61,349 nt of DNA from the NCBI GenBank assembly GCA_016927245.1, contig JAFGNA010000012.1, positions 1-61,349 on the forward strand. Direction: 5' to 3'. Below the pieces are notes generated by a model. That model made no database searches, had not been told where the DNA came from, and was given only the letters and a program-made list of their open reading frames with translations. The position numbers and the translations under genes are program-made. Origin of the DNA: Candidatus Woesearchaeota archaeon. GTDB lineage: Archaea > Nanobdellota > Nanobdellia > Woesearchaeales > WJKR01. Positions within the stretch are counted from its first letter, which is position 1, and every line of letters begins with the position of its first letter. Below, one piece after another: positions 1 to 39,719 of the stretch.

Positions 1-21
1 CTTTTTTAGCCCTTTCTCCCG

Positions 22-49
22 ATTGAAACTAAGCCCTGTTAGTTGAGGA
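22..49 (+). repeat. Xer/dif-like cassette junction site 1
   Basis: Left arm attgaaactaa, spacer gccctg, right arm beginning TTAGTTG at 39. The right arm is the inverse of CAACTAA at 667-673, the end of the cassette that starts here; the left arm would belong to a cassette lying outside the window. Confidence 0.7.
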
Positions 50-673
50 GACTGCAAGTCGACTGACCGAAGGGACAGTTTTGAAATTTTACGAACGAAG
101 TGAGACTATTGTTTAGAAAAAAGAGGGGTGAGTTTTTATTTTTTAATACCAATAAACCATGCTTTTTCATTATCATATTTGGGGTCAGTTTTCCAAACTT
201 TAAGAAAATATGTTAATTTATATTTATGTTCAGGTCCATAAAATGGATCTAAAAAATATATGTATTCATTATCAATATTTTTTACAACAACAAAATGATC
301 AACCTTTTCTTTATGAACATAATAAGAAGTTAAAATAAAATAACCTTCATTCATTATTTTTTTTAATTCCTCTATTGTTGAATTTCTTTTAACAATATAA
401 TTTAAATTATACTTTTCTGCTAATTGAGGATATAATTTAGCCCATGTTCCACGAATTTTATTTGTTCCCAATAACTTAACGATTTGTTTTTCTGACTTTT
501 TAATTCCACATGCTTCTAAAATCATTCTCATTGAAGCAGAACCACAAGTCCAACAAGTTTCTTGTTTGTGAAAAGGTATCATAATATTAATCAAAGTTTA
601 TTGATTTATATAAGTTTTTTTGTTTGAGCCCCTCTTTTTTCTTTATTATTTAAAATTTCAAAATTGCAACTAA
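39..673 (-). mobile_element. Cassette A (C39-like protease)
   Basis: The outer arm ttagttg (39-45) is matched inverted by caactaa (667-673). The inner 14-bp arm agaaaaaagagggg (115-128) is matched perfectly inverted at 629-642. About 70 bp between the left outer and inner arms contains the small hairpin gact-gc-aagtc. One gene, with its own TATA box, lies inside the inner arms. Confidence 0.7.
136..582 (-). CDS. Peptidase C39-like cysteine protease
   Basis: A 148-residue protein resembling the papain-like C39 peptidase fold, the family that trims double-glycine leader peptides and also occurs as stand-alone domains. Visible residues are Gln7 and Cys13 in a C39-like N-terminal motif (TCGSAS), His96 in DHFVVV and Asp112 in LDPFYG, in the order and spacing of the family. 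There is no signal peptide or transporter domain, so it is probably cytosolic. I chose the ATG at 582 rather than the TTG at 594 because the TATA-like box at 605-613 is centred 27 nt upstream of it, as expected for a leaderless transcript. It is the only gene of cassette A. Substrate unknown; a role in toxin or peptide processing is only a guess. Confidence 0.7.
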   Translation of the reverse strand: MIPFHKQETCWTCGSASMRMILEACGIKKSEKQIVKLLGTNKIRGTWAKLYPQLAEKYNLNYIVKRNSTIEELKKIMNEGYFILTSYYVHKEKVDHFVVVKNIDNEYIYFLDPFYGPEHKYKLTYFLKVWKTDPKYDNEKAWFIGIKK

Positions 674-691
674 GGTGCTGTTAAGTCGCCC
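663..691 (+). repeat. Xer/dif-like cassette junction site 2
   Basis: Left arm attgcaactaa, 7-bp spacer ggtgctg, right arm beginning TTAAGTCG at 681. The left arm pairs with the start of cassette A (39-45) and the right arm with the end of cassette B (1294-1301). A hairpin ggtct-gc-aagacc follows downstream, near 708-720. Confidence 0.7.
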
Positions 692-1301
692 CGAGCTTTG
701 GTGAGAGGTCTGCAAGACCGTGGGTTGAGGAGCGTAGCGACGAAGAAGTAAAATTTGAGCTCTTAATAAATATCGACCAAAGTGAGCCTATATGTCTGTA
801 GGACTGGAGTTCTTTTATTTTTCTTTTATTAGAATTGATGAAACTTTGAGTTTACATCTTTCAGAGTCTATCCTGCTATCAGTTATGGTTCCGTTTTCTA
901 CTATTAAGATTTCTCTTCCAAGGCATTCTCTTTCTATGTTAAATATTATTGTTGCGAAGTATATTCTTGGTTCTCTCCAGCATTTATTACAAGGTAGTTC
1001 TGTTATTCCTTCTTCTTGCGGAGGTCTACAATAAATCTTGTGACAGGCGTATCCTGTTTCTCTTTCTAATAAAAATACGTTTATTATTATTGCAAAAAGA
1101 AAGCCTATAAGAACATAGATTGCTACAATTAATAAGATCACTTTTTTTATTCTTTTTTTATTCACTGATTTCTTTTTTTGTTTATTTATATTTATAAGTT
1201 TCTATTTCTTTACCCTCACTTCCGATATAAAATTATATATTTAATACAAAACTAATAATTAGAAGATGAAATAAAAAGAGCTCAAATTTTATTCGACTTA
1301 A
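681..1301 (-). mobile_element. Cassette B (Cys-rich membrane protein)
   Basis: The outer arm ttaagtcg (681-688) is matched inverted by cgacttaa (1294-1301). The inner arm is a perfect 16-bp inverted repeat, taaaatttgagctctt at 749-764 against 1276-1291, the longest in the array. It encloses one gene and its promoter. Confidence 0.75.
815..1165 (-). CDS. Small membrane-anchored cysteine-rich protein
   Basis: A 116-residue protein with a basic N-terminus (MNKKRIKK), one membrane segment at about residues 8-32 and a C-terminal part with five cysteines (including CHKIYC and CNKC) that would lie outside the membrane. The spaced cysteines suggest disulfides or a small metal site. The start is GTG: the TATA-like box at 1190-1197 is centred about 28 nt upstream, giving a leaderless message. 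It is the only gene in cassette B. I do not recognise the family. Confidence 0.55.
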   Translation of the reverse strand: MNKKRIKKVILLIVAIYVLIGFLFAIIINVFLLERETGYACHKIYCRPPQEEGITELPCNKCWREPRIYFATIIFNIERECLGREILIVENGTITDSRIDSERCKLKVSSILIKEK

Positions 1302-1319
1302 ATCCTTGTTAAATGAGGG
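1291..1319 (+). repeat. Xer/dif-like cassette junction site 3
   Basis: Left arm attcgacttaa, spacer atccttg, right arm beginning TTAAATGA at 1309. The left arm pairs with 681-688 (cassette B) and the right arm with 1842-1849 (cassette C). The downstream structured segment contains ggct-gc-aagcc and ends in ccgcagagt at 1369-1377. Confidence 0.7.
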
Positions 1320-1849
1320 TGAGCGAAGCGAAAGGCTGCAAGCCGTCCCCGAGGATTTGCGAAGCAAACCGCAGAGTTTTATTTTCGGCACGGCAATTCT
1401 ATTTTTCCATCAATATATTTCTGACAAAAACCTTTCACATTTGGTGCGCAAGAATAATTTTGATATTGTTTCATAGGTAACCAGAATAATTTTTCAAATT
1501 TATCTGGTTCATTTACTTTAGGAATTTGATTATTTTCAATAATTCCTAAATATTTATGACTTTGAAAAGAACGACCATCAATATCAAAATTTTCATATTC
1601 AATATACTTAACAATTGTAACATCAACACCTAACTCTTCTCTACATTCTCTTTTGGCAGTTTCTTCCAAAGTTTCTCCGTCTTCTACTTTTCCACCGGGA
1701 AATTCATAGTGTTGATGTTTATTTTTCCAAAGAAGAAGTAATTCTTCATTGTCATTTACAATTGCGCATCCAGATAATTGAATTCTCATATATTGATGGT
1801 TATTGAAAATAGTATATAAAGTTAGTGCCGAAAATAAAATTTCATTTAA
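1309..1849 (-). mobile_element. Cassette C (Nudix hydrolase)
   Basis: The outer arm ttaaatga (1309-1316) is matched inverted by tcatttaa (1842-1849). The inner arm is a perfect 15-bp inverted repeat, ttttattttcggcac at 1377-1391 against 1825-1839. The left inner arm overlaps the stop codon and last codons of the gene, so the cassette is trimmed tightly around the coding region and its promoter. Confidence 0.75.
1379..1789 (-). CDS. Nudix hydrolase
   Basis: A 136-residue stand-alone Nudix protein. These enzymes hydrolyse nucleoside diphosphates linked to another moiety, often as house-cleaning of oxidised nucleotides (MutT-like). The Nudix box is perfect: Gly33, Glu39, then Arg47-Glu48, Glu51-Glu52 and Gly54, with the preceding EFPGG motif. 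The length is normal for a MutT/NudA-type enzyme; the substrate cannot be read from the sequence. The start ATG at 1789 lies 27 nt from the centre of the TATA-like box at 1811-1820. It is the only gene in cassette C and is AT-rich like the rest of the island. Nudix genes are also common integron cassette cargo in bacteria. Confidence 0.85.
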   Translation of the reverse strand: MRIQLSGCAIVNDNEELLLLWKNKHQHYEFPGGKVEDGETLEETAKRECREELGVDVTIVKYIEYENFDIDGRSFQSHKYLGIIENNQIPKVNEPDKFEKLFWLPMKQYQNYSCAPNVKGFCQKYIDGKIELPCRK

Positions 1850-1866
1850 TTCCTGTTAGTTTCGTT
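1839..1866 (+). repeat. Xer/dif-like cassette junction site 4
   Basis: Left arm atttcatttaa, spacer ttcctg, right arm beginning TTAGTTTC at 1856. It is followed by a perfect 8-bp stem gtttccag/ctggaaac (1864-1871 and 1882-1889) and the 15-bp sequence ctgcgtccgcagagt (1890-1904), which recurs exactly in island 2 at 36801-36815. Confidence 0.7.
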
Positions 1867-1975
1867 TCCAGTTACGAAGTTCTGGAAACCTGCGTCCGCA
1901 GAGTTTTTTCGAGGGCGTTCTATCAAGCTCGGAGAGCCTTCAAGAACATACATCTAGGGGTGGTTTCTATTTGAT

Positions 1976-2176
1976 TTAGATATTTAGTTTGGAGCAACAT
2001 TCTAAACAGAAATATTTTACATTACTCTCATCAATTTCAACATCGTAAGGATTTTCTTTAATAGATTCAGTATCCACAAGAACTTTACATTTATGTATGC
2101 TATCTATTTCTGCATTACAGTCTGCACAATTTACGGATTCCTTTATGTTGAAATATTGGTGAAGTCTTTTTGCCAT
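1976..2176 (-). CDS. Small zinc-ribbon-like protein
   Basis: A 66-residue protein with two knuckles, CADC at residues 17-20 and CLECC near residues 57-61, as in a small zinc ribbon; a further Cys30 lies between them. It starts 4 nt after the stop of the NucS-like gene, and the Shine-Dalgarno sequence ggtgat overlaps that stop codon, so the two are co-transcribed and probably translationally coupled. It could be a partner or antitoxin-like regulator of the nuclease, which is inference from the coupling only. No family recognised. Confidence 0.6.
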   Translation of the reverse strand: MAKRLHQYFNIKESVNCADCNAEIDSIHKCKVLVDTESIKENPYDVEIDESNVKYFCLECCSKLNI

Positions 2177-2180
2177 GGTA

Positions 2181-3146
2181 TCACCTTTTATCTTCTTTTA
2201 TAGATTCTACTTTTTTCACAAAATTTATTATATTTTCTATCATTTCGGAGGACTCAACTTTGCTAACTATTGCATATCTTTTTTCGTTAATTATACATTC
2301 ATCACCAACATATCTATCCCAGAAAATTTTAGAATTAAAATTACCGCCTAATCTACCACTATGTAAAATATATTTTTCTCGATTTGAATTTATAGCAATT
2401 AACCCTGCTGCTCTTAATTCTCCTTTAAAATTAAAATTTATTTCACAAATTATTGATTTTGATGTATTAGGATTTCCCAAGCCAAACGCATTCCAATATC
2501 TTGTAGGATTTTCTCTTGGTGAAACAGTGAACGAACCCCATGCATCTAATTCTTCTATGTAAAAAACATCATAAGTTCTACTGCTATGTTTTATTCCTAA
2601 CGTAATATTTTTAAAAATATTATTTTTTGCTTTAGTTATCCATATATCTTGAATTAATCTTTGAATGTTTGATATTTGGTATGGCTCAGTTAGAACAGTT
2701 AGATTTCTTGCGTTGTAATTTTTATTTTCATTCTTGATATTTTTTGGATTTGAAGAAGATTCTTGAAATAGATTTAAAAATTTGGTATCATGTTTTTTCT
2801 CAATAAATTCTTTCAGAGAATTATAAGTGATTTCTTTCCAAGCGATTCCATGATGGTCTAAACTTCTTTGGATATTTGGTGGAACCCTATTTCCAATAAG
2901 CATGACTCTTATTGTTGGGTCATCATGGGATAATAGCATTCCCTCATATGAAAGAATCTGCCCTATATTTTGGTCTTTTATTGGACCAATTTTTAATTCA
3001 ATAATGAGTTTTCTGTTATGAACATCTTTGAATAGAATATCTATCCTTCTTCCATATACTGTAACTTGACGACCTAAAAATTCTAAATTTTCTTCTATCA
3101 ATTCAGGATACTTAATCAGTATATCCTCAAAATCTTTTTCTTTCAT
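2181..3146 (-). CDS. NucS-like PD-(D/E)xK endonuclease
   Basis: A 321-residue protein whose N-terminal 110 residues match the catalytic domain of the archaeal NucS/EndoMS (DUF91) nuclease family: Asp36 in RRIDILF, Glu50 and Lys52 in IIELKIG, followed by the QILSYEG helix. NucS normally has its DNA-binding domain first and the nuclease domain last; here the nuclease domain comes first and about 190 unfamiliar residues follow. It is therefore a nuclease-fold protein but not a normal mismatch NucS, and a defence role is possible. The start ATG at 3146 is 27-28 nt from the centre of the TATA-like box at 3171-3180. It is the first gene of the two-gene cassette D. Confidence 0.7.
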   Translation of the reverse strand: MKEKDFEDILIKYPELIEENLEFLGRQVTVYGRRIDILFKDVHNRKLIIELKIGPIKDQNIGQILSYEGMLLSHDDPTIRVMLIGNRVPPNIQRSLDHHGIAWKEITYNSLKEFIEKKHDTKFLNLFQESSSNPKNIKNENKNYNARNLTVLTEPYQISNIQRLIQDIWITKAKNNIFKNITLGIKHSSRTYDVFYIEELDAWGSFTVSPRENPTRYWNAFGLGNPNTSKSIICEINFNFKGELRAAGLIAINSNREKYILHSGRLGGNFNSKIFWDRYVGDECIINEKRYAIVSKVESSEMIENIINFVKKVESIKEDKR

Positions 3147-3240
3147 ATTTTGAATAAATATTGAAATATCATATATAAATGTTGTGGGAAAAAATTGCCT
3201 TGAGAAACCACCTCTCTTTAATAATTAAGCCCTCGAAAAA

Positions 3241-3268
3241 ATTGCAACTAAGCCCTGTTATATTCGTC
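3241..3268 (+). repeat. Xer/dif-like cassette junction site 5
   Basis: Left arm attgcaactaa (identical to site 2), spacer gccctg (identical to site 1), right arm beginning TTATATTC at 3258. The right arm is the inverse of GAATATAA in site 6. Confidence 0.75.
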
Positions 3269-3989
3269 GTAGTGAAACGGAGACCGAGGGTTAGTGCAAC
3301 GGTCGGCGAAGCCGAAACCCGAAGAGTTGAGTCCTGCCCGTAAAAGTTATATACTAAAGACATATTATTTGTTTATAATGAAAGAAATATATAAAAAAAT
3401 CTTAGAGAAAGCCCTTCCGTTATACGAAAAAGGAAGAGAAGGAGATGTTGAACATATTAAATGGTTAGCAGAAGTGATAACAAAATATGTTAATGAATTT
3501 GAAGTTGATTATGATATACTAATTCCTGTAGTCCTTCTTCATGATGTCGGATATTCAAAAGTTCCTAAAGGATCAAATCCTTTTGATTTAGATATTAGAA
3601 AATTCCATTCAGAAGAGGGAGCAAAAATCTCAGAAGAAATTCTTGAAGAATTAAATTATCCAAAAGACAAAATCAATGAAATCAAAAGGTTGATTTTGAA
3701 ACATGATAACTGGGCTTTTGGAGACGATTTTGCGGATGAACCTGTATTAAGAATTTTCAATAATTTTGATTTCATGTGGATGGCAAGTGAAAAAGGATTT
3801 GATATTGTGAGAAAATTCATGAAAAAAGAACCAAAAGAATTTTACGAACAAATCAATGAATTCCAACGAAAAAATGAAGAAGAAGGACGTAAATGGTTCA
3901 ACAAAAACATCGAAGAATTCTATAATCAACTTATGCGAGAACGAAAGGAAGGGCTTTCTACATAAAGGGCAGGACTCAATTGAATATAA
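3258..3989 (+). mobile_element. Cassette E (HD-domain protein), next to the recombinase
   Basis: The outer arm ttatattc (3258-3265) is matched inverted by gaatataa (3982-3989). The inner arm ttgagtcctgccc (3327-3339) is matched perfectly inverted at 3967-3979. Its gene is the only one in island 1 that reads toward the recombinase gene. Its two junction sites have spacers in opposite orientation (gccctg against cagggt). Confidence 0.75.
3378..3965 (+). CDS. HD-domain phosphohydrolase-like protein
   Basis: A 195-residue metal-dependent HD-superfamily protein. The motif order is complete: His26, His55-Asp56 (LLHDVGYSK), His77, His109-Asp110 and Asp131. Such proteins hydrolyse phosphate esters of nucleotides or small metabolites; the substrate here is unknown. 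The open frame extends upstream to 3294, but I chose the ATG at 3378 because the TATA-like box at 3346-3353 is centred 27-28 nt before it and because the upstream part reads through the cassette repeat. It ends one base before the right inner arm of cassette E. Confidence 0.8.
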   Translation: MKEIYKKILEKALPLYEKGREGDVEHIKWLAEVITKYVNEFEVDYDILIPVVLLHDVGYSKVPKGSNPFDLDIRKFHSEEGAKISEEILEELNYPKDKINEIKRLILKHDNWAFGDDFADEPVLRIFNNFDFMWMASEKGFDIVRKFMKKEPKEFYEQINEFQRKNEEEGRKWFNKNIEEFYNQLMRERKEGLST

Positions 3990-4006
3990 CAGGGTTTATC
4001 AGCATC
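3979..4006 (+). repeat. Array-end site next to the recombinase (attI-like, site 6)
   Basis: Left arm attgaatataa, spacer cagggt, right arm beginning TTATCAGC. It marks the sharp border between the AT-rich array and GC-rich chromosomal DNA and lies about 130 bp upstream of the XerA-like start codon. The left arm and 6-bp spacer resemble the archaeal dif site bound by XerA as I remember it from Thermococcales. The same 11-bp left arm ends island 2 at 39720-39730. Confidence 0.7.
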
Positions 4007-4133
4007 TTTCGTTCTTCTCGGCTTTGAGCCGTTCTTTCCTTGTTTTCTCCCACCTCATTTTTTTCGTTTTCTCCGTATCGCTTCCGTCCATTTTTCCCGA
4101 ACCGTTTTGAACTCCTTTCTCTCCTTCCCGTGC

Positions 4134-4958
4134 ATGGATCTCGTCTTCCTCGCCCAGCGCAAGATGCGCAGAAGAAGGCTTTCCGAGCGCACGGTCAAGA
4201 CGTACTCGTATTGCTTGGGGCGCTTCCTCAAGTCTATCAGCAAAGACCCTCGTAAAATCACCAAGCATGACGTCCAGGAATACCTCTACTTTCTCGCAGA
4301 GAAAGGCGCCGCTGCGAAGTCGTTGAACGTGCACCTCATGGCCATCAAGTTCGCGTGCGAGGATATCCTCAACAAGCGCTTCTTCGTCAACCTGCCCTCT
4401 TCCAAGCGCCAGCAGCGCCTTCCGGAGGTGCTCACCCAAGAGGAGGTCAAGAAACTCATCCTGGCCATCGCTAATCCTCGGCAGCGGCTCCTCATCAAGC
4501 TCATCTACGGAGCGGGCCTACGCGTCCTTGAGGCCGTCTCGTTGCGCAAGGAGCACCTCTGCCTCGACCAGGGGTTCGGCTGGGTGCGTGGCGGCAAGGG
4601 TGGCAAGGACCGCCTCTTCATCATCCCCTCTGCCATCAAGGATGAGCTCTCAGCCCTCGCGAAGGGTCTCTCGGATGATTCCTTCCTCTTCTCTGGCCAG
4701 AAGCGCCGCCACTACTCTCCCAGGAGCGTCGCCGCCATCGTCAAGCGGGCCGCAAGGGACGCAGACATCAGGAAAGGCGTCCATCCGCACACGCTCCGCC
4801 ATTCCTTCGCCACGCACCTCGTCGAGCAAGGCTGCGACCTCGTCACTGTGCAATCGCTCCTCGGCCACGCCTCGCCGGAGACGAGCATGGTGTACGTCCA
4901 CCTCGCCGTTCCGAAGCTCCTCGTTGCGAAGAGCCCGCTCGACAGCCTCCCTGCTTAA
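4134..4958 (+). CDS. xerA: XerA-like tyrosine recombinase
   Basis: A 274-residue site-specific recombinase of the XerC/D/archaeal XerA type, which cuts and rejoins DNA at dif-like sites through a tyrosine-DNA link. The N-terminal SAM-like core-binding domain spans residues 1-90 and the catalytic domain 95-274. Catalytic residues are all present: Arg130, Lys155, His219-x-x-Arg222, His245 and Tyr254, with the SPLD tail typical of archaeal XerA. It lacks the extra helix between the second and third catalytic patches that marks integron integrases (IntI), so it is XerA-like. The ATG at 4134 is preferred to an in-frame TTG at 4107. It is transcribed away from the cassette array, with site 6 between them, as intI is in integrons. 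It may serve both chromosome-dimer resolution and cassette exchange. Confidence 0.85.
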   Translation: MDLVFLAQRKMRRRRLSERTVKTYSYCLGRFLKSISKDPRKITKHDVQEYLYFLAEKGAAAKSLNVHLMAIKFACEDILNKRFFVNLPSSKRQQRLPEVLTQEEVKKLILAIANPRQRLLIKLIYGAGLRVLEAVSLRKEHLCLDQGFGWVRGGKGGKDRLFIIPSAIKDELSALAKGLSDDSFLFSGQKRRHYSPRSVAAIVKRAARDADIRKGVHPHTLRHSFATHLVEQGCDLVTVQSLLGHASPETSMVYVHLAVPKLLVAKSPLDSLPA

Positions 4959-6546: not shown

Positions 6547-9495
6547 ATGCGTGTAACAATCTCCCTGTTCCTCTTGGTCTTGCTGCCGTTGGCATGCGCA
6601 GTGCCGCACGCTGATTATCCCTCGTTCTCCTCGGCCGAGGGTCGTTTCTCGCTAATAGACGGCGAGCTCTCGGTTGTCGATGATGTCCTCTTCAGAGGTG
6701 GGTATGTGAGCGTTGGCGGCGGTGCTTGGCAGCCCGTCACCCTGGCAGGGGAGCCGTACGGCTCCTCCGCCGACTGGCTGAGCAGCGGTGCTTCGCTTGA
6801 CTTGTCATCGTTCAGCTTCCCCAGTGATAAAGAGTCATACATCATCGTGTACAGCTGCTCGCAAGCAGGCGGCTGGGACTGTCACGCGACGACCTCCCAG
6901 CCAGACGGTTTCTGGCAATTATTCGTCATCGGCGAACCAACCCCTCCTTCAGGGACGCTGTACCTGGTCAAGGACGGCGTCGCCCAGGCGGACATCGTCA
7001 TCTCCCCAGAAGCGCCTAACCTGGTCGCCATGGCGGCCGACGAGCTGCAACTGCACGTCGAGCGCATGACTGGCGCTTCGCTGCCCATCAACAATGTTCC
7101 GAGCCAGGACTATGGCTTCCACGTCTACATAGGCCGATCAACGTACACCGACGCCTTAGGCGTCACGGATGAAAGTTGCCAGTACGGCAGCTACAAGAAG
7201 GTGTCCGGCGACGACTATCTCGTCCTCCTCGGCAACGACGACCTCCAGAGCGTGTCAGGACCACACAGCGTTCGTTGGAGTTCGGAAACGGCGACGGTCC
7301 TCGAGGAGTGGGACGACATCACCGGCGAGTACTGGGGCACGCCGTACCAGACCTACTACAAGGACCACGACCCTGACCACGAAATATGGGAGACCGACGG
7401 TCGAGGCACGATGAACGCGGTCGTCGGATTCCTCTACGACCAAGGCGTCAGGTGGTATTATCCAGGAGAAATAGGCACCATCATCCCTGACAAGCAGGAC
7501 ATCTTCGTCGAGACGATGGACGAGCACGTCCGACCAGACTTCGCGATGCGACAACTCTACGAATACTACAACCATTTCAACATGGCGTCCGAGGACGAGC
7601 TGTACTGGCAGTTACACCTCCAGCTCCATAAGGGCGATGATGTCATCGGACGATCGCACGGTCACGGCATCAGCCTCGTCACGGGCAGGGATGAAGTAAA
7701 GCAAGCCCATCCTGAGTACTACGCTATCTGGGGAGGAGAGCTCATGAACGGCGACAACCAGAAAGAAGACTTGTGCTCACAAGCATTGCTCGAGGAGAAC
7801 GTCGCGTTCGTCAGGAAGTTCTTCGACGTGTACGGCGACGTCGGCGTGAGCGTGATGCCCAGCGACGGGTTCACCTACGCCTCCGAGAGGACCGATGAGT
7901 GCAAGGCGCAAGAAACCAGGGAAAGAGGCTATGAAGGCTGGCTCTCGGACTACGTGTTCGAATACGTGAACAACGTCGCGTGGGAGGTTTACGAGACCCA
8001 CCCTGACAAGATCATCACGTGCGACGCGTACACCACCTACCTTTTGCCGCCGACAAGCCTGAGCAAGCCGATAGCCCCCAACCTCCACATCATCATGGCC
8101 CGGTGGCGGGCATGGTTCACCACTCCTGAGAGAAGAGATTTTTACCGGCAAGTCACCGACGACTGGCTCGAAATCCTGCCATCGAACCAAGTCTACGTCT
8201 GGGACTACTACCTCCACAACAGGCTCGACCGCGCAACAGAGTCCTACCCTGCAGTGTTCCCGCAGATCATCAGCGAAGACCTCAAGTACCTTAAGGGCAA
8301 ATCAGGCGGCGAATACATAGAGATACTGAAAAACTGGGGTGGCTGGAACCTCGACTACGACCCGTACGCCGCGAACGCGCTCAACGTCTGGGTCACCGCT
8401 CGCTTGTACTGGGATGCCGACCAAGACGTCGACCTCCTGTTAGAGGAATATTATGACTTGTACTACGGGCCCGCAGCTGACCAGATGCAAGCGTTTGTCA
8501 AGTACGCGGAGGAACACCTGGCAGAAGCGGGAGAAGAGTCCATACACCTCGTCAACCTCCGTAACATGGCGGAAGAAGCCAGAATGATAGCAGGCGACAC
8601 TGTGTATGGAGAGCGCATCGACCTGTTGTTAGGGTTGATGAACAGCCGCTACGTCGGGGAAGAAGCGCTCATCAGCAGCTGCCAGACGCTCGACTCACCA
8701 AGCACCACGTACAAGCTCTCAAAAGACGTCACCACCACGGGGACGTGCTTCACCATAGCCACGGACGGCGTCACGCTCGACTGCCAAGGACACACCATCA
8801 CCTATGGCACCGGCGGCGAAGGGCAAGGCCTCGTCATCGACGGGGAGAACGAGTATACCATCAAGAACTGTGACATCAGGAGCGGGAGCGCCACGGCGAG
8901 CAACGCGATCTACCTCCACGGCACCCGCACCGGGACCATAGCAGGCAACACGATAACCGTGGCGAACAACGGCATACGCATATCAGGAGCCGACAACACC
9001 ACCATCAAGGACAACACCATCGTCTCGACAGCAGGGATAGGCCTCTACGCTGGAGGACTGGCCTACTCAAACATCACCGGCAACGACATCAGCGGCGAAG
9101 GAGAACAAGCGTTCTACCTCTACGGCTCGCACGACGTCACCATAGAAGACAACGACGTCACGAGCAATAACGGCCGAGGCCTCTGGATGAACACGGGCGG
9201 CAACAACACGCTCACCAACAACAAGTTCACCAGCCAAACAACCTACGCGCTCTGGCTCTATCAAACCACGAACAACCACCTCGTCGACAACACGGCGACC
9301 TCGACCAACGGCATCGGGCTCAGGCTCTACTCAGGAGCCGATGACAACCTCGTCGTCGGGCAGAGCGCGACAGGAGCGAGCATCGCCATAGAAGTAGCCA
9401 ACAACGAAGGCAACACGTTCCAGGACTGCCGAGAGATAAACGGCGAGATACGAGACACGGCGACGGGCACGACGTTCATCAACTGTCCCCATTGA
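6547..9495 (+). CDS. Secreted DUF4838-type protein with beta-helix tail, copy 1
   Basis: A 982-residue exported protein. A Sec signal peptide (about residues 1-19, ending ACA) precedes a short beta domain, then an alpha-glucuronidase/GH20-like N-terminal fold (LAADELQLHVERMTGASLPI-type motif near 165-180), a DUF4838-like alpha/beta region (GVRWYYPGEIGTIIP, HPEYYAIW, WDADQDVDLLLEEYYDLYYG) to about residue 710, and a C-terminal right-handed parallel beta-helix of the NosD type starting LDCQGHTI. DUF4838 proteins are found among carbohydrate-active enzymes, so binding or cleavage of a glycan is likely, but I cannot assign catalytic residues. Many N-x-S/T sites fit a glycosylated surface protein. 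First of four tandem paralogues. Confidence 0.75.
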   Translation: MRVTISLFLLVLLPLACAVPHADYPSFSSAEGRFSLIDGELSVVDDVLFRGGYVSVGGGAWQPVTLAGEPYGSSADWLSSGASLDLSSFSFPSDKESYIIVYSCSQAGGWDCHATTSQPDGFWQLFVIGEPTPPSGTLYLVKDGVAQADIVISPEAPNLVAMAADELQLHVERMTGASLPINNVPSQDYGFHVYIGRSTYTDALGVTDESCQYGSYKKVSGDDYLVLLGNDDLQSVSGPHSVRWSSETATVLEEWDDITGEYWGTPYQTYYKDHDPDHEIWETDGRGTMNAVVGFLYDQGVRWYYPGEIGTIIPDKQDIFVETMDEHVRPDFAMRQLYEYYNHFNMASEDELYWQLHLQLHKGDDVIGRSHGHGISLVTGRDEVKQAHPEYYAIWGGELMNGDNQKEDLCSQALLEENVAFVRKFFDVYGDVGVSVMPSDGFTYASERTDECKAQETRERGYEGWLSDYVFEYVNNVAWEVYETHPDKIITCDAYTTYLLPPTSLSKPIAPNLHIIMARWRAWFTTPERRDFYRQVTDDWLEILPSNQVYVWDYYLHNRLDRATESYPAVFPQIISEDLKYLKGKSGGEYIEILKNWGGWNLDYDPYAANALNVWVTARLYWDADQDVDLLLEEYYDLYYGPAADQMQAFVKYAEEHLAEAGEESIHLVNLRNMAEEARMIAGDTVYGERIDLLLGLMNSRYVGEEALISSCQTLDSPSTTYKLSKDVTTTGTCFTIATDGVTLDCQGHTITYGTGGEGQGLVIDGENEYTIKNCDIRSGSATASNAIYLHGTRTGTIAGNTITVANNGIRISGADNTTIKDNTIVSTAGIGLYAGGLAYSNITGNDISGEGEQAFYLYGSHDVTIEDNDVTSNNGRGLWMNTGGNNTLTNNKFTSQTTYALWLYQTTNNHLVDNTATSTNGIGLRLYSGADDNLVVGQSATGASIAIEVANNEGNTFQDCREINGEIRDTATGTTFINCPH

Positions 9496-9514
9496 ACGGG
9501 CAACGCGCAATAAG

Positions 9515-9522
9515 CTTAAATA
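9515..9522 (+). promoter_or_regulatory. TATA box of DUF4838 copy 2
   Basis: cttaaata centred 28 nt upstream of the ATG at 9547. The stretch from here through the start codon is nearly identical to 12647-12684, so copies 2 and 3 share a duplicated promoter. Confidence 0.7.
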
Positions 9523-9546
9523 CTCTTGTTGCCAAGGACAAGCCTT

Positions 9547-12500
9547 ATGCGCGCCCTCCTACTATCACTCTTCCTGTGCTTGCTGCCATTGGTATGCGCG
9601 GTGCCTCATGGTGATTATCCTAGCTTCTCGTCGCCTGAGGGACGATTCTCCTTGCAAGACGACGTCCTTTCCGTGGCTGACGCGGTCATCTATGAGGATG
9701 GTTATGTGAGCGTTGGCGGTGAGGAGTGGCAGCCCGTCACCCTGGCAGGGGAGCCGTACGGCTCCTCCGCCGACTGGCTGGCAGGAGGGGCCTCGCTCGA
9801 CCTGTCATCGTTCAGCTTTCCCTCTGACAAGGAATCATATGTTATCGTGTACTCGTGCTCACAAACGAGTGGCTGGGACTGCCACGCAACCAACGACCAA
9901 CCAGATGGCTTCTGGCAATTATTCGTCATCGGCGAACCAACTCTTCCTTCGGGGACGCTGTACCTGGTCGAGGACGGCGTCGCCCAGGCGGACATCGTCA
10001 TCTCGCCATCAGCGCCGCCTTCAGTCTCCTTAGCGGCCGACTACTTCCAATTCTATCTCGAGGAAATGTCCGGCGCCACACTACCCATAAGCAACAACCC
10101 CGACCCCGCTTATGACTTCCACGTCTACATCGGCCAATCAACGTACACCGACGCCTTAGGCGTCACGGACGAGGATTGCAGGGACGGCGGTTTCAGAATG
10201 GTCACAGGCGATGATCATCTCGTCCTGCTCGGAGAGGATGACGAGGACAAGCTCCCTGGTTTCGAAGGCGTTCCTGGACCGGCAACGATTGCAGAGTGGG
10301 ATGCATACGTCAGCGACACGTGGGGAGGAGACTATCTCTGGGACAACGACTTTCTCCATTTCTATGACAAACAACGTAATAGCAATCACGACCTCAGGGA
10401 GACCGACAAGAAAGGATCACTGAATGCCGTCTTCGAATTCCTGCAAGAGCAAGGAATACGATGGTACCATCCAGGATGGCACGAATATCCTAATATAGGA
10501 GTGGTAATCCCTTCGAAGCCGACCATCGGTTTCCAACCAAGGGATGAGATCGTTAATCCCGACTTTCCCATGAGGGAATTCATGCTCTACAGCAAATCAT
10601 ACTCGCACCTAAGCCCCTACCATTACGACGGCCGGGCCGACGAGGAGCTGCGATGGGTATTGAGCCTGCGTTCCAACGCGTTTTACGAATTCCTGGTCGC
10701 CTCCTCAGGAGGCCCCGCCCACGGGATACGAGCGGTGATAATCAGGCAATCAGAGACGCACCCCGAATACTACGCTATGGACTCATCAGGGCAAAGGCAG
10801 CTTCCCGGCGTCGTCCCTTACCCCGCTCCTAACCTGTGCTATCCTTACTACACCGAGGAGAACACGTTGTTCGAGGAGAACGTCAAGTACGCCAAGACGA
10901 TGTTCGACCTGTACGACGTCCCCATCGTGAGCATCATGCCGAACGATGGCTTAGGGGTAATATCGAACGAGTGCGCCGACAAGGCGACGCCTGAAAGGGG
11001 AACTGAAGGCAGGTACTCCGATTACGTCTGGGAATACGTGAACAACGTCGCCTGGGAAATCTATAACGACCCTGAGTACCAGGGCAAGATGGTCTCCAAT
11101 TCAGCGTACACCCCATACAGACTCCCACCGCTCAGCTTGAGCAAGGAAGTAGCGCCTAACCTGGCGGTCTTCGTCGGGAGGTCGAGAAGGAGTTTCTCGG
11201 ATGAAGAGACAAAAGCGAGCAATGACGACCTCCTCGGCTCCTGGAAGGACGTGCTCGCTTCCAACAACCACCTGACTGGAGGAAAGGAAACGAACGTGCT
11301 GTTCACTTCTGACTACTACTTGAACAACCGCTACGGGTCATCAACCCAAGGAGTGCCCATGTACGCCCCACACTTCATCTCAGAAGACCTCAAATCCCTC
11401 AAAGGCGTCTCCAGCGGAGAATTCATGGAAGTGGGCACGACCTCCTTCTGGCCTCCCTATAACATCAAGACTGATGAATGGGATGTCGAGTGGGACGCCT
11501 TCGCCGCGAACGCGCTGAACATCTACGTCTTGTCAAGGCTGTACTGGGACGCCGACCAGGACGTCGACCTCTTACTAGAGGAGTACTATGACTTGTTCTA
11601 CGGTCCAGCAGATGAGGAGATGCGATCATTCATCGAATACTCCGAGAGCCACTCCTGGAAAGCGCTCATAGACCCGGACGTCGTCCCCACGATGAGGGAC
11701 CTGCTCGCCCACGCAAAAGAAGTCGCAGGAGAAACAATCTACGGTCACCGCATAGACCTGCTCATAGGACTCATGGACTCCCAGTTCAGTGAGCAAGAGA
11801 TTCTCATAGGCTCATGCCAAGACCTCACCTCCCCCCTGACCACGTACAAGCTCACGAACGACGTCACCTCAACAGGAACCTGCTTCAACATCGAGCAGTT
11901 CGACATCACGCTAGACTGCCAAGGACACACCATCACCTACGCCACCGGCGGCGAAGGGAAAGGAGTGCGCGTCGACAGGCACAACAGCTTCACCATCAAG
12001 AACTGCGACATCAGGAGCACCAGCCAAGGCATAAACCGCGGCATCGACGCCTACCGGTCAACAGGCATAACGATAAGGAACACGACCATCGTCACGAACA
12101 GTATGGGGATGGACTTCGAGGACGTCGAAGACGTGCTTGTCGAGGGAAACACCGTCACCACCACGGCACCCACCATCGCCCTGTACAGCGTGAACGACGC
12201 CACGATAACAGATAACCACTTCGCGGCACAAGAAGGGATGGGACTCTACCTCTACAACTCCTACAACGTCACCGCGACCGGGAACGACGTCACGAGCACC
12301 ACGAACTACGCCTCACACCTCCTAGAGAGCTCGGGCAACACGTTCAGCGACAACACGTTCACCAGCGAGACCACGCACGGGCAATGGCTCTACAAATCCC
12401 CGAACAACACGTTCATCAACAACCATGCGGCTTCACGAGACCGAGCCGGGGTACGGCTCTCCACAGGAGCGGACGGCAACCTGTTCGTCGGGCAAAGCGC

Positions 12501-12678: not shown

Positions 12679-15642
12679 ATGCGCACCCTCTCCCTGTTCC
12701 TTCTATGCTTGCTGCCCTTGGCGTGCGCGGTGCCGCACGGTGATTATCCTAGCTTCTCTTCTCCCGAAGAACGTTTTTCCTTGCAAAATGGCCTGCTCTC
12801 CGTGGCGGATACGGTCGTGTATAAAGGTGGGTATGTGAGTGTCGGTGGCGGTGGTTGGCAGCCAATCACGTTTGCGGGTGAGCCGTACGGCGCTTCAGCC
12901 GACTGGCTGGCAGGAGGTGCCTCGCTCAGCCTGTCCTCGTTCAGCTTTCCCGGTGATGAGGAATCATATGTTATCGTGTACTCGTGCTCACAAACGAGTG
13001 GTTGGGATTGCCACGCGACGACCTCCCAGCCAGACGGTTTCTGGCAGTTATTCGTCATCAGTGAACTAACCCCTCCTAGCGAGACGCATTTCCTCGTCGA
13101 GGACGGCGTCGCCCAGGCGGACATCGTCGTCTCGCCAGAAGCGCCGAACACAGTATTGTTTGCCGCTGATGAGCTGCAGTTGCGCGTAGCTGACATGACC
13201 GGCGCCACCCTCCCCATCAGCGATGTTCCGAGCCAGGACTACGACTTCCACGTCTACGTCGGCCAATCAACGTACACCGACGCCTTAGGCGTCACTGACG
13301 ATGGCTGCGAGTACGGCAGCTTCAAAATGGTCAGCGGCGATGACCACCTCGTCCTCCTCGGCAGCGACGACCTCCAGAGCGTGTCAGGACCACATTCTAA
13401 AATTGGGTATTGGGAGGTTCCCGAGGCGCGTGCGGAGTGGCAGTCGCTCACCGGTGAGCACTGGGACACACCTTACAATATTTATTACAAAGATCATAAT
13501 CGCCAGTTCGAAATCTGGGAGGCCGATAGGCGAGGCACCCTGAACGCGGTGTTCGAGTTCCTCTATGAACAAGGCGTCCGCTATTACTACCCAGGCGACA
13601 TAGGCATCATCACCCCCCAGAAAGATGAAATGTCCGTCCCGTCAGGCCTTAACGAGCACGTGCAACCGGATTTTCCCATGAGAGAATTTTACCAGCTCCA
13701 CCACAAATTATTCGAAGCGTCAGAAGACGAGTTAAGGTGGCAGTTCAGCCTGCGCATCAACCCTGACGAATACACGGGCAGGTACATGGCCCATTCATTG
13801 AATTACATCACCTCCCTTTCTGAAACCAAACAAGAACATCCCGAGTACTACGCGATATGGAACGGGGTGAGGATGAACGGCGATAACTTCAAGCAAGACC
13901 TCTGCTCTGAAGGGTTGTACGAGCAGACCGTCGAGTTCACTAGGGCGGTGTTCGACATCTACGACCTCCCTGTCATGACCATCACTCCGGCCGACGGGTT
14001 CTCCTACGCCTCTGAATCCAGCGCTGAGTGCAAAGCGCAAGAGACTCCTGAACGAGGAATCGATGGCAGGCTGTCGGATTACGTGTGGGGGTTCGTCAAC
14101 AGGCTGGCATGGGAGGTCTACGACGAGTACCCTGACAAGAAAGTCAGGTGCTCTGCTTACGCTCCTTATTTGCTCCCTCCAGAGGACATCGACCAGTTCG
14201 CGCCGAACGTCGTCGTCTCCATAACGAGGTGGCGGGGATGGTTCGGCGAGGATCCTGACGAGGAGCAATTCTACAAGGACCTCACCAACGCGTGGCTGGA
14301 GAAACTCCCGTCAAAAGAAGTCTACATCAGGGAGTACTATCTCTACGGCAGGCCTGGCGGTGACTGGCAGTCAATACCTGTCTACTACCCCCATATCATC
14401 TCAGAAGACCTCAAATGGCTCAAAGGGAAGTCAAAAGGGGAATACATGGAAGTATTGAGGAACAGCAACTCGCAAGGCCCAGAATGGGATCTCTTCGTCG
14501 CCACCGGGCTCAACCTCTACGTCACTGCCAGGCTGTACTGGGACGCCGACCAGGACGTCGACCTCTTACTAGAGGAGTACTATGACTTGTACTACGGCTC
14601 CGCGGCGGAAGAGATGCAGACGTTCATAGAGTACTCCGAAGCGAATTACGGACGAGCGACAGATGACCCCGAAGTCCTGCTCAATCTTAGAGCAATGGCG
14701 GAGGAAGCGAGAGCAGTAGCGGGCGACACCGTCTACGGCGAGCGCATCGACCTCCTCCTCGGCATGATGAACTCGGAATACATTGGAGAACAAGTCACCA
14801 TTGACTCATGCCAAACGCTCGACTCACCAGCAACAACGTACAAGCTCACAAAAGACGTCACCTCTACAGGAACATGTTTCACCATAGCCACGGACGGCGT
14901 CACGCTCGACTGCCAAGGACACACCATCACGTACGCAACCACTGCAGGGACAAGCTATTACGGGGTGCACATCAACTGGGAGAACTACTTCAACATCACC
15001 AACTGCGTCATCAAGAATGGCAACTCCTTATCAGGGCCAGGCATCTTCGCGCGAGACACCACAGGAGGGGTTATCAAGGACAACGACATCTCCTCGTCCA
15101 GCCATGGCGTCTACGCCTTGAACGCTCACCACCTGGAATCCTTGAACATCCAAGTCCAAGGGAACACCATCACGAGCTCCTCTGGAGTCGCTCTCTACAC
15201 GAACGGCATGTCAAACGGCAGCATACGAGACAACGAGATGAAAGGCGCAACAGACCTAGGGTTGTACCTCTATAACACGCACGATTTCATCGTGGACAGC
15301 AATAGCTTCTCGAGCAACACAGATAACGGAGCAAAAGTCATGGAGAGCACGAGGAACCGTTTTACCATGAACAACTTCACAAGCGACTCCGGAAACGCCC
15401 TGTACATCACGCAATCCTCAGAGAACGCCTTCATCGACAACGCCGCAGTCTCGCAAGAGAAAAATGGAATAGCCCTGTACGTCGGCGGTGACAACACGTT
15501 CATCGGGCAGTCCGCGAGTGGAGGAATAAAAGCGCTTTACATCAGCGGCTCTTCAAGCAATACGTTCCAGGACTGCGGCGAACTCGTCGGCGGCGTGCAG
15601 GACAGCGGTACTAACAATGAGTTCATCAACTGTCCTTATTGA
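12679..15642 (+). CDS. Secreted DUF4838-type protein with beta-helix tail, copy 3
   Basis: A 987-residue paralogue with signal peptide (ending ACA), the glucuronidase-like N-terminal fold, DUF4838-like region and C-terminal beta-helix. The middle region is closer to copy 1 (for example NGDN and ECKAQETPERG), while the block encoding WDADQDVDLLLEEYYDL is identical in DNA to that of copy 2, a mosaic that points to gene conversion. The beta-helix is the most diverged part. The start at 12679 is set by the TATA spacing. It ends, like copy 2, with a FQDCGELVGGV segment and a FINCP tail, which may be a cell-surface or folding cap since it is kept in all three. Confidence 0.75.
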   Translation: MRTLSLFLLCLLPLACAVPHGDYPSFSSPEERFSLQNGLLSVADTVVYKGGYVSVGGGGWQPITFAGEPYGASADWLAGGASLSLSSFSFPGDEESYVIVYSCSQTSGWDCHATTSQPDGFWQLFVISELTPPSETHFLVEDGVAQADIVVSPEAPNTVLFAADELQLRVADMTGATLPISDVPSQDYDFHVYVGQSTYTDALGVTDDGCEYGSFKMVSGDDHLVLLGSDDLQSVSGPHSKIGYWEVPEARAEWQSLTGEHWDTPYNIYYKDHNRQFEIWEADRRGTLNAVFEFLYEQGVRYYYPGDIGIITPQKDEMSVPSGLNEHVQPDFPMREFYQLHHKLFEASEDELRWQFSLRINPDEYTGRYMAHSLNYITSLSETKQEHPEYYAIWNGVRMNGDNFKQDLCSEGLYEQTVEFTRAVFDIYDLPVMTITPADGFSYASESSAECKAQETPERGIDGRLSDYVWGFVNRLAWEVYDEYPDKKVRCSAYAPYLLPPEDIDQFAPNVVVSITRWRGWFGEDPDEEQFYKDLTNAWLEKLPSKEVYIREYYLYGRPGGDWQSIPVYYPHIISEDLKWLKGKSKGEYMEVLRNSNSQGPEWDLFVATGLNLYVTARLYWDADQDVDLLLEEYYDLYYGSAAEEMQTFIEYSEANYGRATDDPEVLLNLRAMAEEARAVAGDTVYGERIDLLLGMMNSEYIGEQVTIDSCQTLDSPATTYKLTKDVTSTGTCFTIATDGVTLDCQGHTITYATTAGTSYYGVHINWENYFNITNCVIKNGNSLSGPGIFARDTTGGVIKDNDISSSSHGVYALNAHHLESLNIQVQGNTITSSSGVALYTNGMSNGSIRDNEMKGATDLGLYLYNTHDFIVDSNSFSSNTDNGAKVMESTRNRFTMNNFTSDSGNALYITQSSENAFIDNAAVSQEKNGIALYVGGDNTFIGQSASGGIKALYISGSSSNTFQDCGELVGGVQDSGTNNEFINCPY

Positions 15643-36679: not shown

Positions 36680-36741
36680 GATCCTCCTCTCGTTCATTGT
36701 TTAGTTTTTAGAAAATCACCCCTTTGTTAGCCCCTGAAATT

Positions 36742-36815
36742 ATTGAATAGAATGATGTTAAGTTCGTTTCCAGCTACGAGCGAAGCGGAGTTAGGGGAAA
36801 CTGCGTCCGCAGAGT
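36742..36815 (+). repeat. Junction site 7 and hairpin at left end of island 2
   Basis: Degenerate site with left arm attgaatagaa, a 5-bp spacer and right arm TTAAGTTC at 36758. It is followed by the stem gtttcc/ggaaac (36766-36771 with 36796-36801) and ctgcgtccgcagagt (36801-36815), identical to 1890-1904 in island 1. Confidence 0.65.
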
Positions 36816-37061
36816 AATTTTGAGAGGCGTCCAATCCCATAGAACGAAGTGATACATAAAGGGCAAGAATCATGGGGACAATTTTAATACATCGAAGCTG
36901 AAGGCTCTCTACATCAATACATTAAGAGGAGTTCCGAGAATAGACCAGAATAAAGTAAAATATATAAACTATCTTAAACTTATATTCTTATAGGCAATGA
37001 AGTCTGCCTTCGTTTATGCGTAAACTGCTTCAGCTGATGACTTCTTCTTAAGGTGATATGT
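36816..37061. other. Gene-free upstream region of the island 2 operon
   Basis: No gene seen. It contains a purine-rich stretch with a cgaag motif (36843-36849) like those in the island 1 junctions, a TATA-like aaatatataaac near 36958-36969, and about 70 nt of leader ending in the Shine-Dalgarno aaggtgat at 37050-37057. Confidence 0.5.
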
Positions 37062-37481
37062 ATGCAATGGCAGCATTACAGCAGTGTTAAGTCAGCAATG
37101 TGGTATATTGAGGGGTTGCTTCATGAGATAGAGTTATCCTTGAGGGAAGGAAATCTATCTTACCATGCTGTTGAAATTGACCTGACTAAAAAGCAGATTA
37201 ATGATATAATGAAGCAGGTGAAAGCATTGTATTCCATCCTAAAAAAAGCAAAAAAGGATTTCAATCTAAATTCAGAGCCCGTCAAGCTGTCGAGAATAAT
37301 AGATGTAAATACAGGATATATTTGGAAAACAGTCGAGGATTCGTGGTCTTCTGAGATCGAGAAGAAATCAGGCAAGATAAGTTCTGCTGAGCAGAAGAAA
37401 CAACTTGATATCTTGCTTAGTAACATCTTAGAATTGACCAATAAAATAAGGTCGGTAGCAAATGAACATTCACTGGGATAG
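37062..37481 (+). CDS. Helical protein, first gene of island 2 operon
   Basis: A 139-residue soluble, mostly helical protein (MQWQHYSSVKSAMWYIEGLL, then charged helices and a C-terminal coiled segment SSAEQKKQLDILLSNILELTNKI). No membrane segment or motif is recognised. The ATG at 37062 is favoured by the Shine-Dalgarno aaggtgat; a GTG at 37053 is possible. The end overlaps the next gene by 20 nt. It may share ancestry with the third gene, which has a similar helical start, but this is weak. Confidence 0.55.
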   Translation: MQWQHYSSVKSAMWYIEGLLHEIELSLREGNLSYHAVEIDLTKKQINDIMKQVKALYSILKKAKKDFNLNSEPVKLSRIIDVNTGYIWKTVEDSWSSEIEKKSGKISSAEQKKQLDILLSNILELTNKIRSVANEHSLG

Positions 37482-37740
37482 AGAACCTGAAAAGGTAGAG
37501 CAGAAGATTCTTGCAGACTATCTTTACGGCCACCGGATGATATTGGAGAAGGTGATTGAATTAAGCTCAACGAATACTTTGCTGACAACTTCAGCCACAC
37601 ATAAATCCTTACGTAGCGGATTTTTTACCCATGACGTTAGGGAAGAACAGTCCTCTAATAATTGCATCTCCGTGGCATGGAGGGGGATTCGGACTGGAGA
37701 TGCAAGGCCTCTGCTCTACGGATGGCTTGAACAAGAATGA
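37462..37740 (+). CDS. Small soluble protein, second gene of island 2 operon
   Basis: A 92-residue protein that starts inside the end of the preceding gene (20-nt overlap) and ends with ATGA overlapping the next start. The first 35 residues are helical and charged; the rest (THKSLRSGFF to ARPLLYGWLEQE) is of mixed type. Translational coupling on both sides argues that it is real despite no family match. Confidence 0.5.
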   Translation: MNIHWDREPEKVEQKILADYLYGHRMILEKVIELSSTNTLLTTSATHKSLRSGFFTHDVREEQSSNNCISVAWRGIRTGDARPLLYGWLEQE

Positions 37741-38138
37741 GATCGCCAAAAAGAAACAAAGAGTATTTACTGGATTTTCTGATGAAAAGCAATAGTCTGC
37801 ACGATTTGCTAGGCATATTATCGAATATTTGTGAGAATTTGGATTTAAGCTACCTAAATCCTAGAATAAAGCATTTTAGATATTTTCAATTTACCTTTTT
37901 CGGACTGATGGTCAAAGCCAATAGTCTGCTTGAGCTGATGGTTTTCAGAGCAGAATTTTTAAAAGAGTCGATGCCAGAATTTGAAAACACACATAACAAA
38001 CTTATCACGCTTCAAAAAAGAATGCAAAAAGCATATTCATTTATTCATTCAAATAACATGATTGAAGGGAAAGCTCAAATAATAGAATGTTCCAAAGAAT
38101 ACCAAAACATATTCGAGGACATGCAGAAAACGGATTAA
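37737..38138 (+). CDS. Helical protein, third gene of island 2 operon
   Basis: A 133-residue basic helical protein (KSNSLHDLLGILSNICENL, FRYFQFTFFGLMVKANSLLELMVFR, HNKLITLQKRMQKAYSFIHS). The hydrophobic stretch in the middle is broken by charges and is more likely an amphipathic bundle than a membrane span. It starts in an ATGA overlap with gene two and is followed seven bases later by the toroid-repeat gene. Family unknown. Confidence 0.5.
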   Translation: MRSPKRNKEYLLDFLMKSNSLHDLLGILSNICENLDLSYLNPRIKHFRYFQFTFFGLMVKANSLLELMVFRAEFLKESMPEFENTHNKLITLQKRMQKAYSFIHSNNMIEGKAQIIECSKEYQNIFEDMQKTD

Positions 38139-38145
38139 AGTTGCT

Positions 38146-38889
38146 ATGAGCATGAAAAAAGATGAGACTTATTCGTTTGTGCTGAGCAGAAAGCAATCAG
38201 ACGGAGGATTTAGTTTTGCAGAAATGACTCCTTCAACACTCGAAGATACTTATTATGCTCTGCAAATAATGCAAGAACTTCAACTACCGTATAAGAATGA
38301 AAAAACGATTCAATTCATACTTTCTGTGAATAGGAAAAGCTTGATGATAAAACACTTGTTTCAATTAGCGCATCTTAGTGAAACATTACATCTCAAAATA
38401 TCATGGCTAAACGAAGCGATTAGACATTATCCTTTTGAACAAGTTGCAGATTCACAATCATTGTATTATGCCGCTAAACTCGCAAGAATAAGCAATGACA
38501 ACAAGATAATTGAGGCGCTCAGAATGAAAAGAATAGAACTATCCCTAAATGAGCATCTTCTGAGCGAATTGTGCTCGAAAGCAATAGCTTTAAAGATTCT
38601 CAATAAAAAGTTTAATGAAACCAAGGTTTCTGATACGATTAAGCGATTTCAAGGATGTGATGGGGGCTTTAGCTTCACAGAAAAAGGAGCACCATCATTC
38701 ATAGAAGAAACATATCTCGCAATAGAAGCATTATCGGAGCTGCATCAAAAACCTAACAATAGTAAAGCGTGCAAATCTTTTGTTGCTATGTGCAAGGCTA
38801 ATACTGGTGGTTATGGAAGACAAATAACGACAGTACCAACGCTCGAAGGAACATATTGTGCAATTGCTATCTTAAAAATGCTTGCATAA
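38146..38889 (+). CDS. Prenyltransferase/squalene-cyclase repeat protein
   Basis: A 247-residue protein with three clear alpha-alpha toroid repeats of the prenyltransferase-beta/squalene-hopene-cyclase superfamily: QSDGGFSFAEMTPSTLEDTYYAL near residues 17-40, CDGGFSFTEKGAPSFIEETYLAIEAL near 172-197 and NTGGYGRQITTVPTLEGTYCAIAIL near 221-245. Real cyclases are over twice as long and have a DxDD acid or, in prenyltransferases, zinc ligands; neither is visible, so it is probably a short toroid scaffold or a reduced ligand-binding protein. It closes a coupled four-gene operon carried on the AT-rich island. Confidence 0.7.
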   Translation: MSMKKDETYSFVLSRKQSDGGFSFAEMTPSTLEDTYYALQIMQELQLPYKNEKTIQFILSVNRKSLMIKHLFQLAHLSETLHLKISWLNEAIRHYPFEQVADSQSLYYAAKLARISNDNKIIEALRMKRIELSLNEHLLSELCSKAIALKILNKKFNETKVSDTIKRFQGCDGGFSFTEKGAPSFIEETYLAIEALSELHQKPNNSKACKSFVAMCKANTGGYGRQITTVPTLEGTYCAIAILKMLA

Positions 38890-39045
38890 TGCCTTAGAGC
38901 TATACTCTTTTATGTTTGGGAAAGAAACGAAGTTTCGAGAATGCAACGTGCCCGAAAGGAAAAACTCAAAGTCGTCGTGTGTATATTTTTTTCTAGGGGT
39001 TGTTGCCGTTCTAGAATGTAATATATTTCTTACAAAAATAGGAAG

Positions 39046-39054
39046 ATTTAAATA
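39046..39054 (+). promoter_or_regulatory. TATA box of cassette F
   Basis: atttaaata centred 27 nt upstream of the GTG start at 39077, supporting a leaderless message. Confidence 0.65.
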
Positions 39055-39076
39055 GTAACATATTTTTTACATATAT

Positions 39077-39478
39077 GTGGCTAACATAAATAAAAAAAAT
39101 TCAGCATGGAGATATGGTTTTGCAATCATATTAGTTATCTCAGGACTAATTTTATCTTATCTAAATATTGGAGATGAATTTTTGGGATTTTCCTCAGTTG
39201 GTTCATGGTTAATATATGTGGGTTTCATAATGTTAGCAATTATAACATTACAGTTAATGTCGAATAAAAAAAGAATTGTTGATGAACGAATGCAGTTCGT
39301 AGCTACAAAAGCCGCAAGAATAACATTTATTGGAATAATCTTATTCGCGTTTGTAATAATGGTAATAGATGGAATCAAACCAATAAATATTGCTTATTCA
39401 TATTTTATGAGTTATCTAATATGTGGAATTGTTCTGCTATACTTAGTATCCTATAATATTTTACTAAGGTTCAATTAG
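39077..39478 (+). CDS. DUF2178-type membrane protein
   Basis: A 133-residue protein with four membrane segments (about 13-30, 40-60, 82-102, 107-128) and the signature [18 protein letters not shown] between the second and third, as in the DUF2178 family. These proteins are very often paired with a small Xre-type regulator, exactly as here, in archaea and firmicutes; their function is unknown. It starts with GTG at the position predicted by the TATA box. It ends one base before the regulator start. Confidence 0.75.
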
Positions 39479-39479
39479 A

Positions 39480-39686: not shown

Positions 39687-39719
39687 GGCAACAACCCCTT
39701 TTAATAAATCTATGCGACG

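Follow-up and report, generated by a model that had tools for sequence, protein, structure and literature searches.

A probable integron-like cassette array beside a XerA-type recombinase gene in a Woesearchaeota genome

The 61,349-bp stretch of DNA analysed here (the window; the whole of contig C22 in a 1.11-Mb Candidatus Woesearchaeota genome of 24 contigs) probably contains a chromosomal gene-capture platform, integron-like in its working, with a XerA-type tyrosine recombinase. Established at the level of sequence are the anatomy of the cassettes, their constant polarity, the attI boundary, differences in the first cassette between close relatives, an empty locus and linkage to a specific clade of XerA proteins. 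No description of XerA-linked arrays was found in the open-access literature.

Structure of the cassette array

Positions 1–3989 of the window are a run of cassettes, five of them whole (A1–A5) and a sixth (A6) broken by the contig end, with genes for an HD protein, a NucS_C/PDDEXK-like protein, a Nudix hydrolase, a 116-aa protein and a C39-peptidase-like protein. The end of the array coincides, as originally predicted, with a switch from AT-rich to GC-rich DNA, the GC content being 30.3% in 1–3989, 46.5% in 3990–4133 and 58.6% beyond (second AT-rich island excluded). The gene of the XerA-type recombinase occupies 4134–4958 on the plus strand (ATG at 4134; a TTG start is possible at 4107); it reads rightward and is followed downstream by glyS. 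Its start lies 127 bp after position 4006, in line with the approximately 130 bp that had been proposed, and its orientation, opposite to that of four of the five window cassettes, is also as proposed. Such an array of small cassettes beside an oppositely read tyrosine recombinase resembles integrons, which combine IntI, attI and attC (for archaeal ones, see PMC9668308).

All cassettes lie on the minus strand, on which each opens with an 8-nt arm, TTANNNNN, followed by AA and then by one arm of an outer stem of 11–18 bp. The gene comes next, and after it the complement of the outer arm, a GC-rich hairpin, the complement of NNNNN, TAAC and a short centre, directly after which stands the TTA of the next cassette. 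A1 (3252–3989, 738 bp) has R' TTATATTC, R'' GAATATAA, the centre CAGGGC, outer arms at 3967–3979/3327–3339 that pair over 13 nt, and an HD-domain gene on the plus strand (3378–3965). A2 (1850–3251, 1402 bp; R' TTAGTTGC; outer arms 3229–3241/1904–1916) carries two minus-strand genes, the NucS_C/PDDEXK-like gene at 2181–3146 and a 66-aa ORF at 1976–2176. The genes of the remaining whole cassettes are likewise on the minus strand: Nudix (1379–1789) in A3 (1302–1849, 548 bp; R' TTAAATGA; outer arms 1825–1839/1377–1391), the 116-aa ORF (815–1165) in A4 (674–1301, 628 bp; R' TTAAGTCG; outer arms 1276–1291/749–764, 16 bp) and the C39-peptidase-like gene (136–594) in A5 (33–673, 641 bp; R' TTAGTTGC; outer arms 651–663/79–91 and 629–642/115–128). 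The start of A6 (1–32) opens with TTAGTTTCAATCGGGAGAAAGGGC and is cut off by the contig end; its arms are identical to those of a cassette in another genome, G098, and a search of its own genome for the distal mate did not find one.

The inner arms match in full in A1 (TTATATTC/GAATATAA), A3 (TTAAATGA/TCATTTAA) and A4 (TTAAGTCG/CGACTTAA) and at 7 of 8 positions in A2 and in A5. Arms are complementary within one cassette and not between the arms that face each other at array junctions. The junctions are therefore chimeric, as in integrons, where the R'' and R' ends are likewise complementary within a cassette; a symmetric site would be restored only in a closed circle, so that the excised circle, and not the array, is predicted to fold as a hairpin. 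When folded in circle form, all six cassettes tested gave the same structure, composed of the outer stem, a branch and a hairpin with the centre as its loop. The circle form had a better folding energy than the array form in 50 of 51 cassettes (mean –26.4 versus –14.7 kcal/mol), a comparison that is not independent, since the cassettes had been picked for complementary ends.

The window sites consist of R''-(6–7 nt)-R' only and, unlike classical attC sites, have no L'' and L' boxes; they have instead the long outer stem after a 2-nt interruption. In known attC sites, self-pairing is not confined to the 7-nt R boxes but covers 9–11 nt altogether, and extrahelical bases choose the strand (PMC2727003), whereas here an 8-nt arm, a 2-nt interruption and an 11–18-bp outer stem are present.

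Inverted repeats flanking each gene would also be seen in terminal-inverted-repeat (MITE-like) elements, or in sequences that form panhandles at the RNA level, rather than in site-specific cassettes. This reading has almost no chance of being right: the elements follow one another directly, head to tail, all in one polarity and from one fixed start site, target duplications are absent and the repeats differ in each element.

The attI-like insertion site

The attI-like site (3990–4006, minus strand) comprises the centre ACCCTG (3990–3995) and the left arm GATGCTGATAA (3996–4006), with the predicted crossover between 3989 and 3990, at 5'-G|TTA on the minus strand. The original prediction had placed here a single 28-bp site, 3979–4006, which reads GATGCTGATAA-ACCCTG|TTATATTCAAT on the minus strand. 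Its location and attI-like character stand, and its unity does not: the site is chimeric, since the right arm (3979–3989) belongs to cassette A1, of which it forms the opening 11 nt, and fixed attI is confined to 3990–4006. Cassette ends do coincide with the site, as expected, in that TTATATTC at 3989 is matched by its exact complement, GAATATAA, at the far end of A1 (3258–3265).

In relatives, the attI motif consists of a conserved left arm resembling CGCATATA (CATAT-type), 4–8 nt (about 6) and then TTANNNNNAAT. In 24 of 62 loci it was found on the antisense strand, approximately 160–500 bp from xerA on the upstream side, and in none did it occur in the sense direction (mean of 1.05 in shuffles), which bears out the expectation that relatives would share the site. 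The window's left arm, GATGCTGATAA, is a variant of this conserved arm, whose dif-like sequence distinguishes it from integrons. G immediately precedes TTA at most attI junctions; a fixed insertion site beside the recombinase and a crossover at G|TT(A) are features shared with integrons. Between xerA and attI, four loci (L096, L099, L100 and L098) contain repeated motifs resembling TGTCCAGTG, possibly accessory binding or regulatory sites.

Close relatives differ in their first cassette, as the original prediction anticipated (L096/L097, L099/L055, L075/L098/L100 and others), and their alignment from the xerA side stops 3–15 nt past the crossover (...G|TTA). In two families the first cassettes have the same start, homology beginning exactly at the crossover; the first 53 nt and last ~138 nt of the first cassette are common and the interior is different. 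An empty locus is present in a same-genus genome (G001), in which glyS and the rio operon are adjacent, with neither xerA nor cassettes between them. In the window's own genome, contig C1 holds an array tail of the same polarity that runs into the rio operon; a single insertion thus probably has one end on C1 and the other on C22. Taken from sequence comparison, cassette insertion at attI is well supported.

Cassettes in related genomes

Further cassettes were sought with a finder requiring inner arms matching at 8 of 8 positions and an outer stem of at least 11 bp at a fixed offset. This strict rule was adopted because a laxer one gave noise (144 antisense against 122 sense matches and 81–85 in shuffles); an initial finder that needed TAA-N6/7-TTA on both sides had been dropped, as it missed relatives. 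Upstream of xerA, the strict finder returned 48 cassettes antisense to xerA and none sense, compared with 0–1 per shuffle (10 shuffles, 410 kb); the 48 fall in 24 of 67 loci. The arrangement is thus widespread within the order, in dozens of genomes related to this one. With pairs chosen by the outer stem alone, the inner arms were perfect in 42 of 67, and in 1.3% when paired with another cassette's arm. Among 50 arms, 31 are distinct, so that pairing is kept while sequence varies. In the own genome (1.10 Mb, one inner mismatch allowed), the finder returned the window's five cassettes, one on contig C21 (B1), one on C1 and one chance match; searching the genome for a 20-nt consensus pattern yielded two sites only, since the arms differ from cassette to cassette.

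Gene direction was part of the original prediction, and it holds within the window, where four of the five cassettes point away from xerA. Over 47 cassettes from the window and relatives, however, the longest ORF reads away from xerA in 24 and toward it in 23, and direction is thus no signature; the 48:0 site polarity is. Cassette genes here, unlike those of integrons, are therefore not oriented with the site. The cargo comprises toxin–antitoxin (TA), restriction–modification and other accessory genes, among them ParE-type toxins, an EcoRV-type endonuclease with methyltransferases, a Schlafen AlbA_2 protein and a pAgo-model match; TA and restriction cargo is another point of likeness to integrons.

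Near-identical whole cassettes common to two genomes were not found, only shared ends, which counts against the proposed platform; within one array (L104), a single cassette is present twice (9138–10032 and 13095–13989, 93% identical). A long array in genome G037 (L045) has sites with an extra hairpin of ~115 nt between the R boxes, which corresponds to a full attC-like R''-L''-L'-R' arrangement. Viral contigs with related recombinases (mostly ~30% identity; 1.09 Mb) contained no such cassette, the single finder match there being without the site signature. In 14 of 51 genomes the contig breaks off no more than 500 bp upstream of xerA, and in none does it do so downstream, as is expected of variable arrays in these MAG assemblies. 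Also against the platform, some XerA genes of the array-linked clade, for example L094, are preceded by a long stretch of DNA in which no array is detectable.

The recombinase

The catalytic residues R-K-H-R-H-Y are invariant among array-linked XerAs. The IntI-specific insertion of ~40 residues is missing, as had been claimed, and in this the enzyme departs from that of integrons: of 23 array-linked XerAs, 22 have 62–67 residues between the K patch and HxxRH and one has 80, compared with 107 in a true IntI. The nearest solved structure is that of Pyrococcus XerA; aligning IntI4 requires a gap at the IntI insertion. In the tree, nearly all XerAs linked to arrays or attI fall in one clade (support 100/93), apart from the clade of plain XerA (99/93). 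The own genome carries both, the plain copy lying on C5 without an array, and from its place in the tree this paralogue is the likelier chromosome dimer resolvase. A third lineage, to which the own C21 copy belongs, is also array-linked, and its position near IntI is a long-branch join.

A true integron with a divergent IntI is very unlikely. The recombinase does match the integrase_gron model, its C-terminal motif TTMVYxH is IntI-like, and full R''-L''-L'-R' sites occur in L045 and in the own B1. The integrase_gron score is, however, 183 bits, below the curated cut-off of 265, and the XerA model NF040815 scores higher, at 213 bits, just under its cut-off of 220 (relatives L045 and L046 reach 225 and 224 bits); the missing insertion and the tree position among XerAs also stand against it.

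Only marginally more probable, and still improbable, is that another recombinase moves the arrays in trans and that the adjacent XerA is coincidental. The role given to XerA is argued from linkage, and integrase-less arrays (CALINs) are common in archaea (PMC9668308). Against it, arrays and xerA occur together at 24 loci, always on the same side and in the same polarity and with the conserved attI between them, and this linkage is confined to one XerA clade and one further lineage. No IntI was found at E ≤ 1e-60 in 60 relatives, a threshold at which control genomes were also blank, although the same model gave 400 bits on a true IntI; a scan of genome contigs returned mainly bacterial relatives, and the two tested were IntI. 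From the linkage, we infer that XerA is the enzyme that recombines the cassettes.

Other loci in the same genome

A decayed second copy of the system lies at 36740–39886 of the window. It contains an attC-like remnant (~36740–36830), AT-rich genes, an attI-like site (~39723–39750) and, on the plus strand, a remnant of XerA (39755–39886) that consists of its C-terminal 44 aa and is 75% identical to the C21 copy. The AT-rich genes include one for an HTH_3 protein with a DUF2178-like membrane protein.

The second array locus, on C21 (L059, 8300–10988), has its own, distant XerA and adjoins the archaeal PolD large subunit. Its cassette B1 has arms in common with window A4, a different gene and a full R''-L''-L'-R' site; together with L045, it indicates that the loop-only and classical forms occur within the same order. 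A YoeB/ParE-like toxin cassette adjoins B1. On C13 (L060, 9880–10200), a XerA match in two frames is apparently a frameshifted pseudogene.

Proposed mechanism

Cassettes would enter singly at the fixed attI upstream of xerA, at centre|TTA. The free cassette would be a circle, one strand of whose site folds into the outer stem, the GC-rich branch and a short hairpin in which the two R arms pair and enclose a loop of 5–7 nt, to which some genomes add L''/L' stems, as in classical attC. XerA would then exchange one strand at G|TTA, joining the folded strand to the double-stranded attI, and replication would complete the event. Cassette circles, catalysis by XerA and the folded strand as substrate are the inferred parts of this scheme.

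Tyrosine recombinases that perform two exchanges require matching centres. Here the attI centre and the first-cassette centre match at 1.6 of 6 positions, which is chance level, and centres vary in length from 5 to 7 nt. Such unrelated centres favour an integron-like exchange of a single strand at G|TTA over a pair of matched exchanges, and a folded strand is indicated by the covarying arms together with the outer stem. Two observations count against this scheme: the right arm is also conserved in sequence (TTA..Y.CAAT), as expected of double-strand recognition, and the folded window hairpin keeps one paired arm, L''/L' being missing, with two recombinase monomers to accommodate.

The same centres bear on canonical double-stranded Xer/dif recombination, in which XerA would exchange dif modules at 28-bp sites through two exchanges and without folding. 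In its favour, the arms are dif-like (right arm TTATATTCAAT; 5–7-bp centre) and symmetric in circle form, and some archaea have dif sites close to xerA, as reported for Sulfolobales (PMC2958812). We nevertheless regard it as unlikely, for it does not accommodate unrelated centres of varying length and leaves no role for cassette-specific arm covariation or for an outer stem outside the 28 bp; polarity is, moreover, constant here, whereas Acinetobacter dif modules carry sites in XerC/D and XerD/C orientations (PMC6449649).

Discussion

The probable integron-like platform shares with archaeal XerA/dif resolution (PMC2958812) the recombinase family and the dif-like arms and centre. It differs in that its XerA clade is separate from the same genome's plain XerA, its centres are not conserved, and one locus holds many sites bounding accessory genes. 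In Acinetobacter, too, Xer-type sites bound accessory genes, the pdif/dif modules being shuffled between replicons (PMC6449649). Those modules are without an adjacent recombinase, mainly plasmid-borne and opposite in site orientation, with no cassette-specific stems reported (PMC6449649), whereas here xerA is adjacent and site polarity uniform.

A further reading, which we hold tentatively and at slightly less than an even chance, is that this is an ancient or independently evolved integron, in which a Xer without the IntI helix would recombine cassette sites, folded as single strands, with a dif-like attI, the loop-only and full R''-L''-L'-R' forms representing living intermediates between Xer/dif and IntI/attC.

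Xer recombinases are taken to be the origin of integrons, but how a double-stranded dif gave way to a folded, single-stranded attC has no explanation that we know of. If the proposed platform is real, a Xer without the IntI domain, coupled with cassette ends that covary as stems, would make the transition from dif to attC testable, and this archaeal lineage would have a common gene-capture system that searches keyed to IntI would miss.
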